Positions 11,730 to 45,598 of a stretch of 49,441 nt of DNA are shown piece by piece. Position numbers and translations under genes: made by a program. The stretch covers positions 1 to 49,441 of the IMG/VR virus record IMGVR_UViG_3300048839_001052; one strand, written 5' to 3'. Numbering within the stretch: position 1 is the first letter of the stretch; every line of letters starts with the position of its first letter. The DNA comes from a virus. The notes under the pieces were generated by a model. The model was given only the letters and a program-made list of their open reading frames with translations, did not search any database and was not told where the DNA came from.

Positions 11730-11757
11730 TTGCTGTCGCGTACTCATGATATATAAT
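11730..11757 (+). promoter_or_regulatory. Rightward promoter of the ssb operon
   Basis: TTGCTG (11730-11735), 16-bp spacer, TATAAT (11752-11757). The leader of about 43 nt contains AAGGAGA before the ssb ATG at 11807. It is divergent from the island promoter 45 bp away. Confidence 0.7.
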
Positions 11758-11806
11758 GCCGACGTTGGTTGTGTTTTGTTGTACAAAAAACTTAAGGAGA
11801 AAACGA

Positions 11807-12214
11807 ATGCACACTGTTTCTGTTGTTGGTCGAATCGGGCACGATCCCGAGATGAAGTATCTGCCATCCGGCATGGCTGTCACGAACGTATCCATCGCCA
11901 CCGACGACTACGCCGGTAAGGACGACCCCAAGCACACGACTTGGTTCCGCCTGACATTCTGGGGAGCCAAGGCGGAGGCTGTCAACCAGTACGTCAAGAA
12001 GGGCGACTGGCTGGCTGTCGTGGGCAAGATGAAGAGCGACGAGAAGGGCAATCCCCGCGCCTTCGAGCGCAAGACCGGTGAGCCGGGGGCCTCTTACGAG
12101 ATGACCGTCGATGATTTCGCCTTTATCGGCGGCAAGCAGCGGGGCGAGGATGATGGCGATGACTTCCGTGTTGTCGTCAAGCCCCTCGCCGAGAAGGACA
12201 GCAGCCCCTTCTAG
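11807..12214 (+). CDS. ssb: Single-stranded DNA-binding protein (135 aa)
   Basis: OB-fold SSB: MHTVSVVGRIGHDPEMKYLPSG at the start is a typical SSB beginning, followed by VTNVSIATDD, WFRLTFWG and a VVGKM strand. The acidic tail ends DSSPF, like the DDDIPF tip that binds partner proteins. The ATG at 11807 has AAGGAGA upstream; the frame is open earlier but has no support. It protects ssDNA and probably loads the RecA-like protein encoded next, 15 nt downstream. Confidence 0.95.
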   Translation: MHTVSVVGRIGHDPEMKYLPSGMAVTNVSIATDDYAGKDDPKHTTWFRLTFWGAKAEAVNQYVKKGDWLAVVGKMKSDEKGNPRAFERKTGEPGASYEMTVDDFAFIGGKQRGEDDGDDFRVVVKPLAEKDSSPF

Positions 12215-12229
12215 GGCCCGGGAGACATC

Positions 12230-13255
12230 ATGACAAGAAAGATTGTATCCGCCGCTGATGTCCAGGCCCGCCCGGTAAACGTTGCCATTTGGGGACGTAC
12301 GAAGGGCGGCAAGACGACGCTGGCGACGAGAATGGCAATGGCCCTGTGGCGAGACTACTCCCTGGGTGCCAAAAAGAAGGTCTTGTTCATCGACACCGAG
12401 AATGCCCGCTCGCAATACGCGACATCGGATGCGTACGGCGGGAAACCGCCCGATGGCGTTGACCGGATTGACTGGAAGCCGCCGTACGATATGGTTGAGT
12501 TGGTGGCGATCATCAAGGAGTACCAGAACGACTACGACGTCATCGTGCTGGACTCGTTCTCAGCGTTTTATTCTCGCGAGGGGGGCACGCTTGACCGAGT
12601 TGGTCAGGAAGAGGTCCGCATGAAGGGCAACTCCTGGGCAGCCTGGAAGCGCCCTGGCGAGGAATATGCGTCACTGCTGACGGCGATAACGCAGGCCCCG
12701 TGCCACGTCATCGTGACGTTCCGCTCCAAGATGTCCTACCAGCAGGTGGAAGAGGGCGGCAAAAAGAAGATCGTGCCCATCGGTGAGGGGATCATTGCCC
12801 GTCAGGGCGAGACCGCTTATGAGTTCGACCTCGAGGTCGAGGTCCTGCTGGACAACGCCATTCACTACGCCGTTATCCAGGGTAGCCGTATCAGCACCAT
12901 CGCCACCGGCACCGTCTACAAGGGCGGTCTGCCTATCGACGACATCCTGAAGGCGTACACCGGCTTCATGGGGACCCCCCAGGAAATCATCGCAAGTCAG
13001 GCTGCGGCAGCCGAGGCGGGGATGTCGGCCCAGGAGTTCAAGACCAATGTCGAGAGCCTCATCAGCGACCCGGCCCTGAGAAAGCTCTACTACAACGGCG
13101 CTCTGCTGTCATTGGGATGGACCTGGGACGAGATCGCCGGATCGCCGGAGTCCATCCGGGACCTGTACTATCAGATTGATGCCGACTACGCGGAATCCCT
13201 GTTGGAACTGGATGACGACGAACCCGCAGCCGAGATCGACGAGCCGGTAGAATAG
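12230..13255 (+). CDS. RecA-like ATPase, AAA_24/Sak4-type recombinase (341 aa)
   Basis: Residues about 17-245 form a RecA-like ATPase core: Walker A GRTKGGKT (22-29), a strand with FIDTENARSQ (53-62) and Walker B VIVLDSF (Asp108). This is the AAA_24 type found in phage Sak4 proteins, which anneal or exchange single strands and work with SSB; the ssb neighbour fits. About 100 extra C-terminal residues are acidic and helical and may bind SSB or oligomerise. An alternative role is a helicase-loader-type ATPase. A promoter and terminator follow. Confidence 0.8.
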   Translation: MTRKIVSAADVQARPVNVAIWGRTKGGKTTLATRMAMALWRDYSLGAKKKVLFIDTENARSQYATSDAYGGKPPDGVDRIDWKPPYDMVELVAIIKEYQNDYDVIVLDSFSAFYSREGGTLDRVGQEEVRMKGNSWAAWKRPGEEYASLLTAITQAPCHVIVTFRSKMSYQQVEEGGKKKIVPIGEGIIARQGETAYEFDLEVEVLLDNAIHYAVIQGSRISTIATGTVYKGGLPIDDILKAYTGFMGTPQEIIASQAAAAEAGMSAQEFKTNVESLISDPALRKLYYNGALLSLGWTWDEIAGSPESIRDLYYQIDADYAESLLELDDDEPAAEIDEPVE

Positions 13256-16792: not shown

Positions 16793-17304
16793 CGAACTTC
16801 CGGGTTAACGTCAAGGTCACCACGGAGGGCGACCGGGGCGGTGGCGGGATGCGCCGCATTTACGAGAGAATCAGAAAGATAGACACCGGTGCCAAGCGGT
16901 CAAGGGGCGCTGCGTCTCTGGCTATGGCTGTTCGGGTTGCCGACGAGATCGTCGCCACCGTCCAGGGTGCCTCGGGCGGCGGCGAGACGTGGAACGAGGG
17001 TCACCCCAAGTTCGTTAAGAGGTGGCAGAACTCGTACGAGAGGTCATCGTCAACGCCCGGCAACCCCCCGCGAGACCAGTGGGGTGGTCTTGTTGATTCG
17101 GTTTATACGGTCAAGGTGTCGGAGAGAAGCGCGAACGTCGAGGTCCGGGCTCCGTACGCCGTTTACCATGAGTTCGGCGATTGGACGTCGTTCTTCGGCA
17201 ACAGTATCGGCGCGAGACCGTTCATTCGCCCATCGCTAGAGAAGGTGTCGGGGGAACTCGGGACCATAGCCGAAGCCGCCTTCCGTAATGAGACCGGATT
17301 GTAA
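16789..17304 (+). CDS. HK97 gp10-like tail-completion protein (171 aa)
   Basis: The C-terminal half has the family signature: a strand pair with VYTVKVSERSANVEVRAPYA, then YHEFGDWT and ARPFIRPSLEKV, typical of gp10-like proteins (tail completion / neck). The N-terminus is helical and basic. Overlaps the neighbours by four and one bases. Confidence 0.85.
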   Translation: MTNFRVNVKVTTEGDRGGGGMRRIYERIRKIDTGAKRSRGAASLAMAVRVADEIVATVQGASGGGETWNEGHPKFVKRWQNSYERSSSTPGNPPRDQWGGLVDSVYTVKVSERSANVEVRAPYAVYHEFGDWTSFFGNSIGARPFIRPSLEKVSGELGTIAEAAFRNETGL

Positions 17305-17708
17305 TGGCACTCACTGAACTGTTCTATTCAGAGCTAGTCGCCGCTGTCGGCTCCCTGGTCGGCGGGCGCGTGTACATCAACCCCATTCCGCCAGGATCGG
17401 CAACGCCGGTTGTGGCCTACAAGCGCGTCTACGGTGCCCACACCCGCCGCCACACCGCTGCTGGCTCGTCCAACGGCGTGGCGAGTCAGTGGCAAACCCG
17501 GTGGCAGATAGATGTGCTGTCTAAGAGTTACGCCGACATAGAAACTGTGATGTCTGCCGTTGCTGACTACTTCGGCAGCATGTCGGACTACACCTCGGCA
17601 CCCCTGATATATGACTCTGTTGTCGATATGGCGTTCACCGTATGGGATGGCACTGCGGAGATGCACCGGGGCATCATGAACGTCTCTATGCTTTCATCTT
17701 CGTCATAA
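17304..17708 (+). CDS. Tail terminator-like protein, DUF3168 type (134 aa)
   Basis: Starts ALTELFYSELVAAVGSLVGGRVYINPIPPGSATPV in outline and continues with a strand-helix-strand (WQIDVLSKSYADIETVMSAVADYF), the arrangement of tail-terminator proteins that cap the tail tube and contact the neck. Its place after gp10-like and before a tail-tube gene would be standard, but here the sugar/sulfate transferase gene lies between. The stop overlaps the next ATG (TAATG). Confidence 0.8.
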   Translation: MALTELFYSELVAAVGSLVGGRVYINPIPPGSATPVVAYKRVYGAHTRRHTAAGSSNGVASQWQTRWQIDVLSKSYADIETVMSAVADYFGSMSDYTSAPLIYDSVVDMAFTVWDGTAEMHRGIMNVSMLSSSS

Positions 17709-19783
17709 TGCTACAAATCGTCATACCGTCGAACTCGCACGATCTTGTTTCCACCTGCCTCGATTCGATTCAGGACAAGGACCCCGGATATATTCGCAGG
17801 GTGCATGTCGTTACCGACGATGACGATCTTGTTGAATTCGTCGAGGCGGCATACCCGGGCGCGAGCGGCATCTGGCGCAGGCCCGGACCGTTCACTTTCG
17901 CCGGTGCCGTAAATGACGCCATCGAGTACGCCATCGACGGCGAGGATGTCTTGGTCCTGAACGACGACACCGAACTGGTCACCTATGGCGGCCTGCAAAA
18001 CATGGAGAACCTGCTAGACAAGGTTCGCACCAGGGTCGGTATTGTTAGCTGCGGAATCAAGGGAACCGCTGGCGTGCCGGACCAGCAGGCAGGGGCTGGG
18101 CCACTGTTCAGGCTGGCGGGTAGCGTGTCGTTCACCGCTGTCGCCATAACGAACGAGGCCCTCAAGGTGGTCGGTGCCCTGGACGAGCAGTTCAACCAGT
18201 ACGGCTGGGAAGATAACGACTATTGTACCCGTGCCGCTGCTGTCGGCTTAGGCATCGGGGTGTTTGATGGTTGCGTATTCCGCCACGAGCGCCCCCACTC
18301 CACATTCTCGAAGCACGTTGACATCAAGGCGGGGCACCTGCGGGGCGAGCTAATCTACCGGCGAAAGCACACGGAGATAATCGGCGAGCCGGTATTCGTT
18401 GTCGGCCCCGGTAGCTCCGGGGCATCCGTGGTTGCCGCTGCCGTGAACGGGTTGGAGATCGCCATGTCCGACCCGAACCCACCTCACATCCGCTCCACCT
18501 CGGCCCACTTCCGGGACACCGATTTGTCCAGTCTTGTCAGGCACGGCGTCGATGGCGCTGAACTGTACGCTCTGCGCCGGTCTACTGCGGGTAAGCCGTG
18601 GGGGGTTCGTATCTGGCCCAACCCCCAGGGGCTAGGACTCATCCTCGAGGCGATTCCCGACGCCAGGATCATCTTCGTCACTCGCGACCGGGATGACGCC
18701 ATCGCCTCCTGCACCCTGCGGAACTTCATGAGCAATGCGGCGGCGAAGGAACGGGTGGACGATGAGATGGAAGGGCTTGCCCGCTGCATAGAGATGGCAG
18801 AGGAGTCCGGGGCCACCTACACTACATGCAGCTTCAGCGATCTGATCGACTCCCCCCGCCAAGTCGTAGGGGAGTTGGCGAAGTGGCTGGGCCATCGGAG
18901 TTCCATCACGCAGGCCATCGAGGTCATTCACCCTGAGATGGTGACCTTCCGGCACGGTCTGGCGGAAAAGGTCGCGCCGGATGACTTCGGAACGGTCGCC
19001 ATCGGTCTGCGCTGCTCGAATCCGCAGCCGTCATTTGTTGGCTGCTACGCCCTGCTGATCCGCAATGGGCTCAGAGACGGCGACGTGCTCCTGCAACCGC
19101 AGTACCGGTCCCCGTCCCACATCGCCGCCAACAATCTGATGCGGGAGTTCCTTGCCACGGAAGCCGACACCCTGCTCCTGATAGACGACGATATGACCTT
19201 TGATGACGGCTTGCTGGAAAGACTGCGCTCGCAACCGGATAACTGGCGTCACGGAGTCGTCAGCGCCCTGGCTACCCAGCGGCAGGTGCCGCCAAGGGCC
19301 ATAGTCATGCGAGAGTCAGAGCAGCCGCCGTTGCCAGACGCCGCCGATGGGGTATACTATTCATTAGTGGTTGATGAGATAACCGGCGACAAGACGATGA
19401 ATGTGGACGCAACCGGATTCGCGTTCACGCTGATTCGTCGGTCTGTTATCGAGAAGATGACCACGGAAAACGGTCCGCGTCACACCCACTACGTTCAATG
19501 GGGCGAGGGTGGCATTGGCGAGGACGTGTTCTTTTGCCGAAGGGCTGGTTCTCTCGGCTTCACTGTAGCCGTAGATACGCGGGCGCAGGTCGGGCACCTC
19601 GGTTCTGTTGTATACGGGTACGATGAGTTTGATCACTGGCGGAAGCAGAAGCCGCAATCCGGTGCCGGGTTGGGCGCTGATGATCTTGCGGAGCTAGTAT
19701 CGCACTCTCTTACTACTGATATGGACGGCGAGATGGTTGAGAAAGCCCTCTCACTGCTGTCAACGATACGAGGTATACGATGA
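17708..19783 (+). CDS. Glycosyltransferase-sulfotransferase-glycosyltransferase fusion (691 aa)
   Basis: Three domains. Residues 1-220: GT2/GT-A-like transferase with IVIPSNS at the start, a nucleotide-sugar/metal motif NDDTE (Asp86-Asp87) and WEDNDY (Glu168-Asp169). Residues 225-425: sulfotransferase-like P-loop, VGPGSSGAS (about 232-240) as 5'-PSB loop and IIFVTRDRDDAIAS (about 321-334) as 3'-PSB region for PAPS. Residues 428-690: second GT2-like domain with LLLIDDDMTF (Asp493-495) and GEGGIGEDVFF. Start ATG at 17708 overlaps the tail-terminator stop (TAATG), and the end overlaps the tail-tube start, so it is made with virion proteins. Likely decorates capsid, tail or host surface glycans with sugar and sulfate; substrate unknown. 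Confidence 0.8.
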   Translation: MLQIVIPSNSHDLVSTCLDSIQDKDPGYIRRVHVVTDDDDLVEFVEAAYPGASGIWRRPGPFTFAGAVNDAIEYAIDGEDVLVLNDDTELVTYGGLQNMENLLDKVRTRVGIVSCGIKGTAGVPDQQAGAGPLFRLAGSVSFTAVAITNEALKVVGALDEQFNQYGWEDNDYCTRAAAVGLGIGVFDGCVFRHERPHSTFSKHVDIKAGHLRGELIYRRKHTEIIGEPVFVVGPGSSGASVVAAAVNGLEIAMSDPNPPHIRSTSAHFRDTDLSSLVRHGVDGAELYALRRSTAGKPWGVRIWPNPQGLGLILEAIPDARIIFVTRDRDDAIASCTLRNFMSNAAAKERVDDEMEGLARCIEMAEESGATYTTCSFSDLIDSPRQVVGELAKWLGHRSSITQAIEVIHPEMVTFRHGLAEKVAPDDFGTVAIGLRCSNPQPSFVGCYALLIRNGLRDGDVLLQPQYRSPSHIAANNLMREFLATEADTLLLIDDDMTFDDGLLERLRSQPDNWRHGVVSALATQRQVPPRAIVMRESEQPPLPDAADGVYYSLVVDEITGDKTMNVDATGFAFTLIRRSVIEKMTTENGPRHTHYVQWGEGGIGEDVFFCRRAGSLGFTVAVDTRAQVGHLGSVVYGYDEFDHWRKQKPQSGAGLGADDLAELVSHSLTTDMDGEMVEKALSLLSTIRGIR

Positions 19784-20172
19784 GCAAATTTAACGGCAAG
19801 CAAATGCTCGCCACGTTCGGGACCTGGGGGCTAGACGGGTTGACGGAAGTCGAGTTCAGTTCTGACGCAGATGTTGTCGAGCAGGCTATCTCTGGGCAGA
19901 CCTACAAGGCCCAGATCGTCGGCGTCCCCAACGCTTCGTTCACGCTGAACTTCCTGCTGGACAACGCCACGCCGGTCCCCGCGACGTTTCTGACGGCGCT
20001 GACGCCCGGAAACACCGCCTCATTCACGTTTGATTCGGATCGAACCGGAACGTTTGGCCCCGCCTTCAGCGGCACCGGTCAGGTTCGGTCTCGGAACGTC
20101 TCGTTCCCGGTCGAAACGTTCGTCGCCGCGACCATCGAGATGGTGATTGACGGCGCTCTGACTATCAGCTAA
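19780..20172 (+). CDS. Major tail (tube) protein (130 aa)
   Basis: A small beta-sandwich-like protein with strands such as GLTEVEFSSDADVVE, YKAQIVGVPNASFTLNFLLD and RNVSFPVETFVAATIEMVIDG, like short tail-tube proteins. It is followed by a frameshifted chaperone and a long tape measure, the standard order for a tube gene. A 130-residue subunit is short but in range. Confidence 0.75.
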   Translation: MSKFNGKQMLATFGTWGLDGLTEVEFSSDADVVEQAISGQTYKAQIVGVPNASFTLNFLLDNATPVPATFLTALTPGNTASFTFDSDRTGTFGPAFSGTGQVRSRNVSFPVETFVAATIEMVIDGALTIS

Positions 20173-38223: not shown

Positions 38224-38682
38224 ATGGTCTACATAGTCCGGCATGGTGTGGACGAATTCTTTAAGGTCGGTCACACCAGCCGGAGTATATCCAGCAGAAT
38301 AGCCGAGCTTCAAGCCGGGACGCCGCACGAGATAACGTTATGCGCCCGGCTTGACGGCGATAAAGACATAGAGACTGCCATACACGCCAGCCTAGCCGAG
38401 TACCACATCAGAGGGGAGTGGTTCGAGGTGCCGGAGAGTGAGCTTATCGGCGTCCTGAGAGATGTAACAGACAAGCTAGATCGAGGCGATTCGTTACGTC
38501 TTACCTCTGGATTTGGGGTGAAAGAGCGTAACGGGAGGGCGGCTGGCGGCAAGAAAGCGAGTTACGGAAAGTCGTGTCCGGTATGCGGAAACCTTCTGAC
38601 CATCAGGCAGAGCTATTGCTCGTCGGTGTGCAGGCAGAGGGCCTACCGGCAAAGGAAACAGAGCAAGGAAAATGAAAAGTAA
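38224..38682 (+). CDS. T5orf172/GIY-YIG-type protein with C-terminal zinc finger (152 aa)
   Basis: N-terminal 90 residues fit the T5orf172 family of GIY-YIG nucleases: MVYIVRHG (Y-I pair), FFKVGHTSRSISSRIAELQ and IHASLAEYHIRGEWFEV with a Glu/His pattern. The C-terminus has CPVC ... C...C (near residues 117-138), a zinc finger, and a basic tail. Such proteins are often DNA-cleaving or DNA-binding enzymes of phage. Confidence 0.75.
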   Translation: MVYIVRHGVDEFFKVGHTSRSISSRIAELQAGTPHEITLCARLDGDKDIETAIHASLAEYHIRGEWFEVPESELIGVLRDVTDKLDRGDSLRLTSGFGVKERNGRAAGGKKASYGKSCPVCGNLLTIRQSYCSSVCRQRAYRQRKQSKENEK

Positions 38683-44600: not shown

Positions 44601-44981
44601 GCTGCCTGGATGCCAGCCTGGATGACCCTGGGTGAGGAGTACGAGAGCCGGGCGACGGTGAGCATTTACTACAAGGAAGCGCCTGTTCGCAAGGCTTCCC
44701 TGGCGTACGACGCAACGACGTATCTGAAGCTGGTTCGCGTTGACAAGAACGTGACGTTTGGCGGCGAGGTCATTCCCGTCGTATACGTCGTAGAGGGTAG
44801 CGACTGGAAGCACCGCCCGTTCGAGCGCTGGTACCTAGCGCCGGACCTGGGCTATGTTCGCTGGGAGAACCTGACTGATGGGTGGTTTACCGAGGCGGTC
44901 ACCATCGACGAGGACGGGGGACTTCCTATGCCCCCCGCGCCCCCGGCAATGCAGCTACTGGCAAAGTCGAAGGGGTGGTGA
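41679..44981 (+). CDS. Giant modular lysin: glycosidase-like domain plus C39-like peptidase (1100 aa)
   Basis: Residues about 1-375: TIM-barrel-like glycosidase with YNEPDQE (Glu125, possible acid) and LFSEFGYAER (Glu305, possible nucleophile). Residues about 379-394: an (EP)n linker. About 400-590: beta-rich carbohydrate-binding-like part. About 690-870: C39-like cysteine peptidase, GQFGCLALVYYM (Cys721), QHWVLVIGH (His820) and LVILDPWD (Asp844), order and spacing fitting a papain-like triad. The rest (to 1100) is a beta-rich C-terminal part. AGGAGAG precedes the ATG. It probably cuts cell-wall glycans and cross-links and leaves the cell through the holin. A tail-associated role is the alternative. 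Confidence 0.75.
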   Translation: MIIRPNIGHVFTSISKPTGVGEKYWRPVLSNGGRITVHSIDAAGPILEALKMAQSLGVDHNVSAEFRVTGIHADEGRFVDVPNYNLDPEQAAEDDFPWHLDRWKRAFGSDWDFVRTRCYFRVYNEPDQERSEWLAKNAFRQLELAHKFGVRVSLFGWSAGTPDYPAWEAPVMASLLEELSERPFSAAVSLHEYSLTDDVIVSVAAETGRSYDFVKRSYLLDVGLFTSAVESVTTLDGAEFVKAVLEARGMVMAGATLKASLLDFGDPPLMIDGIIESVTAGVDHDLIGRWTKVPGLRKCTLLFSEFGYAERSAPPKEKIVADLNSAWTAYYSYPNVHGMALWVLDPTWGNLQSTWLALLPDIAKLNLEAEYEVPDGDPEPEPEPEPEPEQPPSKNQIRNGDWTEGWTKIDATNLQMNEWRLEWEDDDSFDPPEWTVKGRGQLPSHEQSYVNPISGVTYKVFGSHAPFQTRMVQDNVILRDGKRQKLIVRGWFEAYTVENGKRYYGTVDPYQAKMELKVNGSVIATREMVLHRRSELAPVGETYDGAYEFEVSGEFDAGDLNKVAIRFESRWGISTNWFIKSVGVYEMAEDDFALDRGYVWQQAMALRALNLNDDAALQKKIVGDGWVPVSPERWITQPNGHKVAVQAAENPVSRVRRAYWARVGDWQNVSFIGSGELETPGNPIDGAYMLKVSGYSQRDPAWSTMRLGTVGSEKTVGQFGCLALVYYMMADFWDLESTASFPEFHDRLVGKGAFSGHFILPGALDIAYGNDVDNLGWRPRSSADFWKLIRYSLYGVEVGGPAPVAVRVDFNPATPQEEQHWVLVIGHTGDFPPNGKPSDLVILDPWDMRPEPKLLGDSYPIDGDDALEMLYYKRVDARDKYYIGSCFPSPMPDETVSRGPVVSFRHSANSPHPNHQENMQLVDLRIGRGAYPCIIKDGNVEQVWVDGSRVMRLCDTSHGNETFYSLETVGTSLPAAWMPAWMTLGEEYESRATVSIYYKEAPVRKASLAYDATTYLKLVRVDKNVTFGGEVIPVVYVVEGSDWKHRPFERWYLAPDLGYVRWENLTDGWFTEAVTIDEDGGLPMPPAPPAMQLLAKSKGW

Positions 44982-45598
44982 TGGGCGACCCGATCTTCTC
45001 CATTGTGACTCGGCATCTCTCGTCTCGACCCAGATCGTTTGACGTTCTGCTGCGCTGCCTGGATGCTCAGACATACAAGGGCTTCGAGCACGTTGTGTTG
45101 ACGGACAACGAGGGTAGCGGGGTGGAGTGGGCCAACAGTCAGGTCCCGTCTCTTATCGAGAGGGCCACGGGGGACTGGGTGTGGGTTGTGGACGACGATG
45201 ATCTCCTGGTGTCGCCGGATACCCTACACTATCTGGCCCAGGAGATTGTCGAAAACATCAGGTCCCCCTGGACTGGTGGCCCCTTGTCGTCGGCGTTTGT
45301 CAAGGGTTCCTTTGCGACTAACGGGACCCTGCCACCTCGCGACCTCTGGAAGTGCCGCCCGGTGAAGGGGCAGATCAGCGGGCAGAATGTGGTTGCGTCT
45401 ATCGATTTAGCCATGCGCTGCCGGTCAGCCTGGGGGCCGGTTTACTCGTCGGACTACGATTACGTTCTGAGTTGCTACAAGGAGTCGAAGTACATCCACT
45501 ATGTAGACCGCGTGGTGATCGCCCAGCAGAGGATAGGCAACGGTCGCGGCGACGACGATCCACCGGGGTACGAGCCGATAGATATTAGCTGGGCATGA
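44981..45598 (+). CDS. GT2-family glycosyltransferase (205 aa)
   Basis: GT-A fold signature: FSIVTRHLSSRP at the start, LRCLDAQTYKGFEHVVLTDN, then WVWVVDDDDLLV (the DxD-like metal/nucleotide-sugar motif) and a closing region with Tyr/Asp. Short for the family, as in phage forms. The ATG overlaps the lysin stop (TGATG), so the pair is made together. It may glycosylate virion or host-wall material, like the first domain at 17708. Confidence 0.8.
   Translation: MGDPIFSIVTRHLSSRPRSFDVLLRCLDAQTYKGFEHVVLTDNEGSGVEWANSQVPSLIERATGDWVWVVDDDDLLVSPDTLHYLAQEIVENIRSPWTGGPLSSAFVKGSFATNGTLPPRDLWKCRPVKGQISGQNVVASIDLAMRCRSAWGPVYSSDYDYVLSCYKESKYIHYVDRVVIAQQRIGNGRGDDDPPGYEPIDISWA

Follow-up and report, generated by a model that had tools for sequence, protein, structure and literature searches.

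What does a phage make with a single enzyme in which two glycosyltransferase (GT) domains flank a sulfotransferase-like (ST) domain, and on which molecule would it act? The question arises in the window (the whole stretch of 49,441 nucleotides that was analysed), where a preliminary description had placed such a GT2–sulfotransferase–GT2 fusion at 17708–19783, with starts and stops overlapping those of a tail-terminator and a tail-tube gene.

A three-domain gene between tail terminator and tail tube

The three-domain fusion in the virion operon is real. The gene is one uninterrupted open reading frame of 691 residues, from ATG at 17708 to TGA at 19783, with Pfam matches and neither frameshift nor truncation. 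The overlaps are also confirmed: its start shares 1 base with the stop of the tail-terminator gene (TAATG), and its stop shares 4 bases with the start of the tail-tube gene (ATGA). Farther upstream are the genes for a neck protein and the major head protein; downstream is the tape-measure gene. The gene, its neighbours and its motifs are as follows.

17304..17708, +, tail terminator, upstream neighbour (weak phrog_347 match, E 2.2e-4)
17708..19783, +, GT2–sulfotransferase–GT2 fusion gene, 691 aa (open reading frame and translation; Pfam; three-domain relatives L009 and L086)
17708..18379, +, domain 1, GT2-like, residues 1–224 (Pfam Glyco_tranf_2_3 at 6–200, Glyco_transf_7C at 145–188)
17960..17968, +, N85-D86-D87, DxD-type motif in domain 1 (identical in every row of the three-domain alignment)
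18209..18214, +, E168-D169, GT2 'ED' motif in domain 1 (likewise identical in every row)
18380..18991, +, domain 2, sulfotransferase fold, residues 225–428 (Pfam Sulfotransfer_3; model against TPST1/TPST2, OLS, CurM and Stf1; profile match to TPST2/SULT1A1)
18404..18427, +, 5'-phosphosulfate-binding (P-loop) site GPGSSGAS, residues 233–240 (Ser236 where relatives have Arg; nine-sequence alignment)
18599..18619, +, WGVRIWP motif, residues 298–304 (counterpart of WGxKDP in two-domain relatives)
18683..18709, +, 3'-phosphate-binding pair Arg326...Ser334, spacing 8 (invariant in 9/9 aligned domains; identical spacing in TPST2)
18992..19780, +, domain 3, GT2/GT-A, residues 429–691 (modelled fold against GT-A structures, Z up to 17.7; phrog_1574, E 1.8e-11)
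19184..19192, +, D493-D494-D495 of domain 3 (invariant in the three-domain alignment; across 24 rows one Asp is invariant and a second nearly so)
19520..19525, +, E605-D606 of domain 3 (both invariant in the three-domain alignment; the Asp nearly invariant in 24 rows)
19780..20172, +, major tail (tube) protein, downstream neighbour (weak phrog_10528 match, E 2.4e-3; adjoins the fusion in L009 and L086 too)

A search of other phages for this order of domains returned two diverged relatives, L009 (contig 3300043411_001041; 47% identity to the window fusion) and L086 (contig 3300012668_000160; 42%). Both have the identical order of domains and the same slot, tail terminator then fusion then tail tube, so that the gene sits among virion genes in three phages; in L086 the synteny with the window runs from scaffold through tail tip. 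That order and slot persist at these identities, and that the middle domain is sulfotransferase-folded, argues that the fusion is not a product of chance. Among 73 contigs whose major head proteins are related, phmmer detected the fusion in L009 and the window's own lineage only, its absence from the remainder being weak evidence since many of these contigs are short. Searching 50,697 phage records, and plasmids as well, by tblastn with the window domain gave nothing convincing, and the same type of search with L009 and the two-domain protein L165 gave weak matches only.

Both GT domains carry the metal-binding Asp motif and the ED motif in the alignment. Glyco_tranf_2_3 scores 38.6 bits against the whole protein (cutoff 27), and 25.4 and 20.2 bits, both under that cutoff, when the GT domains are excised singly. 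Domain 1 is about 36% identical to free-standing phage GTs; domain 3 has weak GT2/GT21-type Pfam matches over residues 474–634. Its modelled fold is GT-A, closest to the viral GT-A protein STIV A197 (2c0n; Z 17.7), with LH3 at 16.8. Because domain 1 resembles the free-standing GTs more closely than it does domain 3, duplication within the gene as the source of both GT domains was set aside. A second GT2-like reading frame lies at 44882–45598 (+; weak Pfam match, E 8.6e-4), behind a long reading frame with no assignment.

The sulfotransferase-fold domain and its PAPS site

Domains 2 and 3 (residues 222–691) were modelled together with AlphaFold from 24 aligned phage sequences (pLDDT 83.5) and the model was compared with known structures by VIA-align. 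The best match to domain 2 is PAP-bound human TPST1 (5wri; Z 14.8, 178 residues, 2.8 Å), followed by TPST2 (14.7), the olefin synthase (OLS) sulfotransferase (14.4) and CurM (14.2), all within 172–179 residues and r.m.s.d. 2.7–2.9; Stf1 sulfotransferase was matched as well. The structural part of the preliminary description thus holds for the sulfotransferase fold of domain 2 and the GT-A fold of domain 3; for domain 1, AlphaFold on a two-sequence alignment reached a pLDDT of 40.7, too poor for reading the N-terminal GT fold.

Sequence comparisons point the same way. Sulfotransfer_3 (PF13469) matches residues 274–395 of the full-length protein (E 2.6e-7), domain 2 alone (E 4.2e-8; 34.1 bits against a curated cutoff of 27) and, in the genome search, at 33.3 bits, again above cutoff. 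A single-protein sequence search of the PDB returned nothing useful; nine ST domains had to be combined into a profile, which matched TPST2 (7.8e-6) and SULT1A1 (8.2e-6). A profile built from just the three-domain copies, three sequences, still matched TPST2, weakly (0.0065). The predicted fold of the middle domain is that of a sulfotransferase. Like TPST1 and TPST2 (5wri, 3ap2), it has the Arg...Ser pair that binds the 3'-phosphate, at a spacing of 8; unlike them, it has lost the loop Arg, and identity is only 11–12%. TPST1 and TPST2 are, moreover, eukaryotic Golgi enzymes that act on tyrosine.

The loss of that Arg is the main reason to question activity in the window. The 5'-phosphosulfate loop reads SSG there and RSG in 8/8 other aligned ST domains, including both three-domain relatives (GGSRSGAA in L009, GPSRSGAS in L086). 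An Arg at this position is important in characterised sulfotransferases of the SULT and TPST types. Sequencing error is argued against by metagenome contig L001, which matches the window almost perfectly (99.99% over 11.3 kb) and has the same bases at Ser236, with the caveat that both assemblies may share a source. At the other positions compared, the usual Thr after the loop SG is Ala in all three-domain copies; WG is kept across the nine sequences, with WGxKDP becoming WGxRIWP; and the position aligned to the catalytic base of TPST2, Glu99, is E, K or P, varying even among relatives with intact loops. Within the three-domain family, where dS is near saturation, domain 2 is the least conserved (34% against 43% and 59%).

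The preliminary description had called domain 2 a PAPS-type sulfotransferase. Its fold and 3'-phosphate pair bear this out, but the window copy is without the 5'-loop Arg. We therefore describe domain 2 by its sulfotransferase fold and its sulfotransferase ancestry, and stop short of calling it an active enzyme, since the Arg/Lys before SG is absent. Judged by alignment, the three-domain and two-domain family keeps the main PAPS features and the window copy is without one important residue. The PAPS-binding residues, which might have been missing from all relatives, are kept in them. The lineage looks like one with a glycosylating and sulfating enzyme; sulfation by the window copy is unproven and doubtful, given GPGSSGAS in place of GxxRSGxS, and may be weak or lost.

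Two-domain fusions and unfused genes

ST–GT proteins homologous to residues 222–691, without the N-terminal GT, occur in seven distinct phage contigs (L165, L166, L167, L168, L169, L170 and L244). They carry intact PAPS loops of the textbook GTGRSGTS type, and in L166 the fusion lies a few genes behind the major head protein. The L170 gene looks frameshifted. The ST domain of this family is under purifying selection (L167/L170, dN 0.18, dS 1.49).

Stand-alone ST genes occur in L201, L325 and L326, and in other phages GT genes lie behind the major capsid protein (L046, L002). At L326:898–2634 (−) the free-standing sulfotransferase has a domain-1-like GT gene nearby on the same strand. At L002:3856–5327 a domain-3-related GT lies behind the head genes, separated from them by one small gene, and a methyltransferase-like reading frame comes next; the two look like another glycan-tailoring pair in a virion region. 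The records of L166, L173 and L168, which have the two-domain fusion, also hold a second, separate Sulfotransfer_3 gene in a frame of 231–241 residues.

In a quick tree of domain 3 the three-domain copies form one group (SH-aLRT 98) and the two-domain copies another (88); these two join with a single GT-only row at a support of 83. This grouping fits, with modest support, a single origin of the ST–GT join with later addition of the N-terminal GT, L248 then representing a loss or an unfused member. A 43-row full-length alignment had been discarded as it aligned domain-1-only GTs onto domain 3. Four of these ST domains were compared with PHROGs and matched no family there. No ST–GT fusion was seen in 697 bacterial genomes from two phyla, where the 11 matches at E 1e-10 were ten ST-only and one GT-only; this search had no positive control and shows little.

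Product, target and competing readings

We tentatively propose, at somewhat less than even confidence, that the fusion is a phage enzyme made late, by coupled translation, and that it tailors a glycan, likeliest on a virion protein such as the tail tube or capsid. Each GT-A domain would contribute one sugar, and domain 2 a sulfate group taken from host PAPS, giving a short sulfated glycan; in the window phage the loss of the 5'-loop Arg perhaps makes the sulfate step weak or abolishes it, the lineage overall keeping it. A virion protein is favoured as acceptor solely on gene position, through late expression coupled to tail genes. PAPS would have to be supplied by the host, since the 13 phage records searched, several of them fragments, yielded no APS kinase. 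For the proposal we count the domains, the modelled fold, the conserved gene order, the two-domain fusions with intact loops, the purifying selection on their ST domain, the GTs behind the major capsid protein and the reported modification of virions by phage GTs; against it, Ser236, the Thr to Ala change, the lack of an assignable catalytic base, the low conservation of domain 2 and the missing APS kinase.

A competing reading is that the protein glycosylates a virion protein but that its ST-fold domain, in the window, is a dead or altered remnant serving only for ligand binding or as a spacer between GTs. Loss of the P-loop Arg, Ala for Thr, WGVRIWP for WGxKDP and the lower conservation of domain 2 all favour such a remnant, which we regard as possible and the strongest of the rivals. 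The intact 3'-phosphate pair and overall fold, the loop Arg in both three-domain relatives and the undamaged reading frame speak against it. A target on the host surface is less likely again: here the enzyme would modify a host glycan, masking receptors or excluding superinfection, and the late operon would merely set the timing. Phage GT2 families are catalogued as moron or auxiliary genes, and known examples of phage GTs acting on the host surface are cited in PMC10955285. That three diverged phages all have the gene tightly coupled between tail genes does not suit this reading, however, nor was a GtrA/GtrC-type membrane partner noticed beside the fusion. Glycosylation of modified phage DNA ranks last and is very improbable. 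Phage DNA glucosyltransferases exist, but base-hypermodification genes were not recognised among the reading frames scanned, the gene lies in a tail operon, and we know of no role for a sulfotransferase in DNA glycosylation.

Glycan tailoring of a virion protein, the reading we prefer, has precedents for its separate parts. Decoration of capsid and tail-tube proteins by phage-encoded GTs has been reported (Freeman 2023, as cited in PMC11600133; PMC11256854), as in mycobacteriophages Che8 and cluster O. As described there, the mycobacteriophage GTs are separate genes with no sulfotransferase domain mentioned, lying either together with an O-methyltransferase gene or close to the end of the genome, unlike the fused gene coupled between tail genes in the window. 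Phage Sulfotransfer_3 proteins, of the same Pfam family (PF13469) as domain 2, are known from OM43 phages and cyanophage S-SRM01, their role being stated as unclear; the sections of that paper drawn on describe no GT fusion and report no link to virion genes, unlike the window (PMC10580990).

A sulfated glycan on a virion, suggested earlier as a new decoration, is not wholly new for prokaryotic viruses. Like the particle proposed here, that of HRPV-1 bears a sulfated sugar, a sulfated glucuronic acid on the N-glycan of VP4, although HRPV-1 is an archaeal pleomorphic virus (PMC6137143). Its host's S-layer glycoprotein also has a legionaminic-acid-containing pentasaccharide (PMC6137143), an indication of host machinery at work in place of an enzyme encoded by the virus. 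An ST–GT fusion in a virion or morphogenesis operon had no report in the open-licence literature or databases searched and is apparently new, the individual elements (virion glycosylation by phage enzymes, phage sulfotransferases, a sulfated virion glycan) being known. The earlier interpretation as a whole is partly supported.

The wider idea, that in some tailed phages one fused enzyme builds and sulfates a sugar chain on the phage's own tail or capsid protein during morphogenesis, giving a charged sulfated coat, seems to us less likely than not. If true, such a glycan would be a charged decoration new to tailed phages and relevant to adsorption and particle stability. An ST domain fused to GTs and coupled to tail genes also gives phage sulfotransferases one concrete, testable candidate role, the making of a sulfated virion glycan.

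Further genes in the window deserve mention. Within the head block, between the portal region and the major head gene, lie genes for a single-stranded DNA-binding protein (SSB) and a Sak4-like/AAA_24 ATPase (11756–13255, +), and at 38224–38682 (+) is a protein with a T5orf172/MUG113 domain and a C terminus that may bind zinc.
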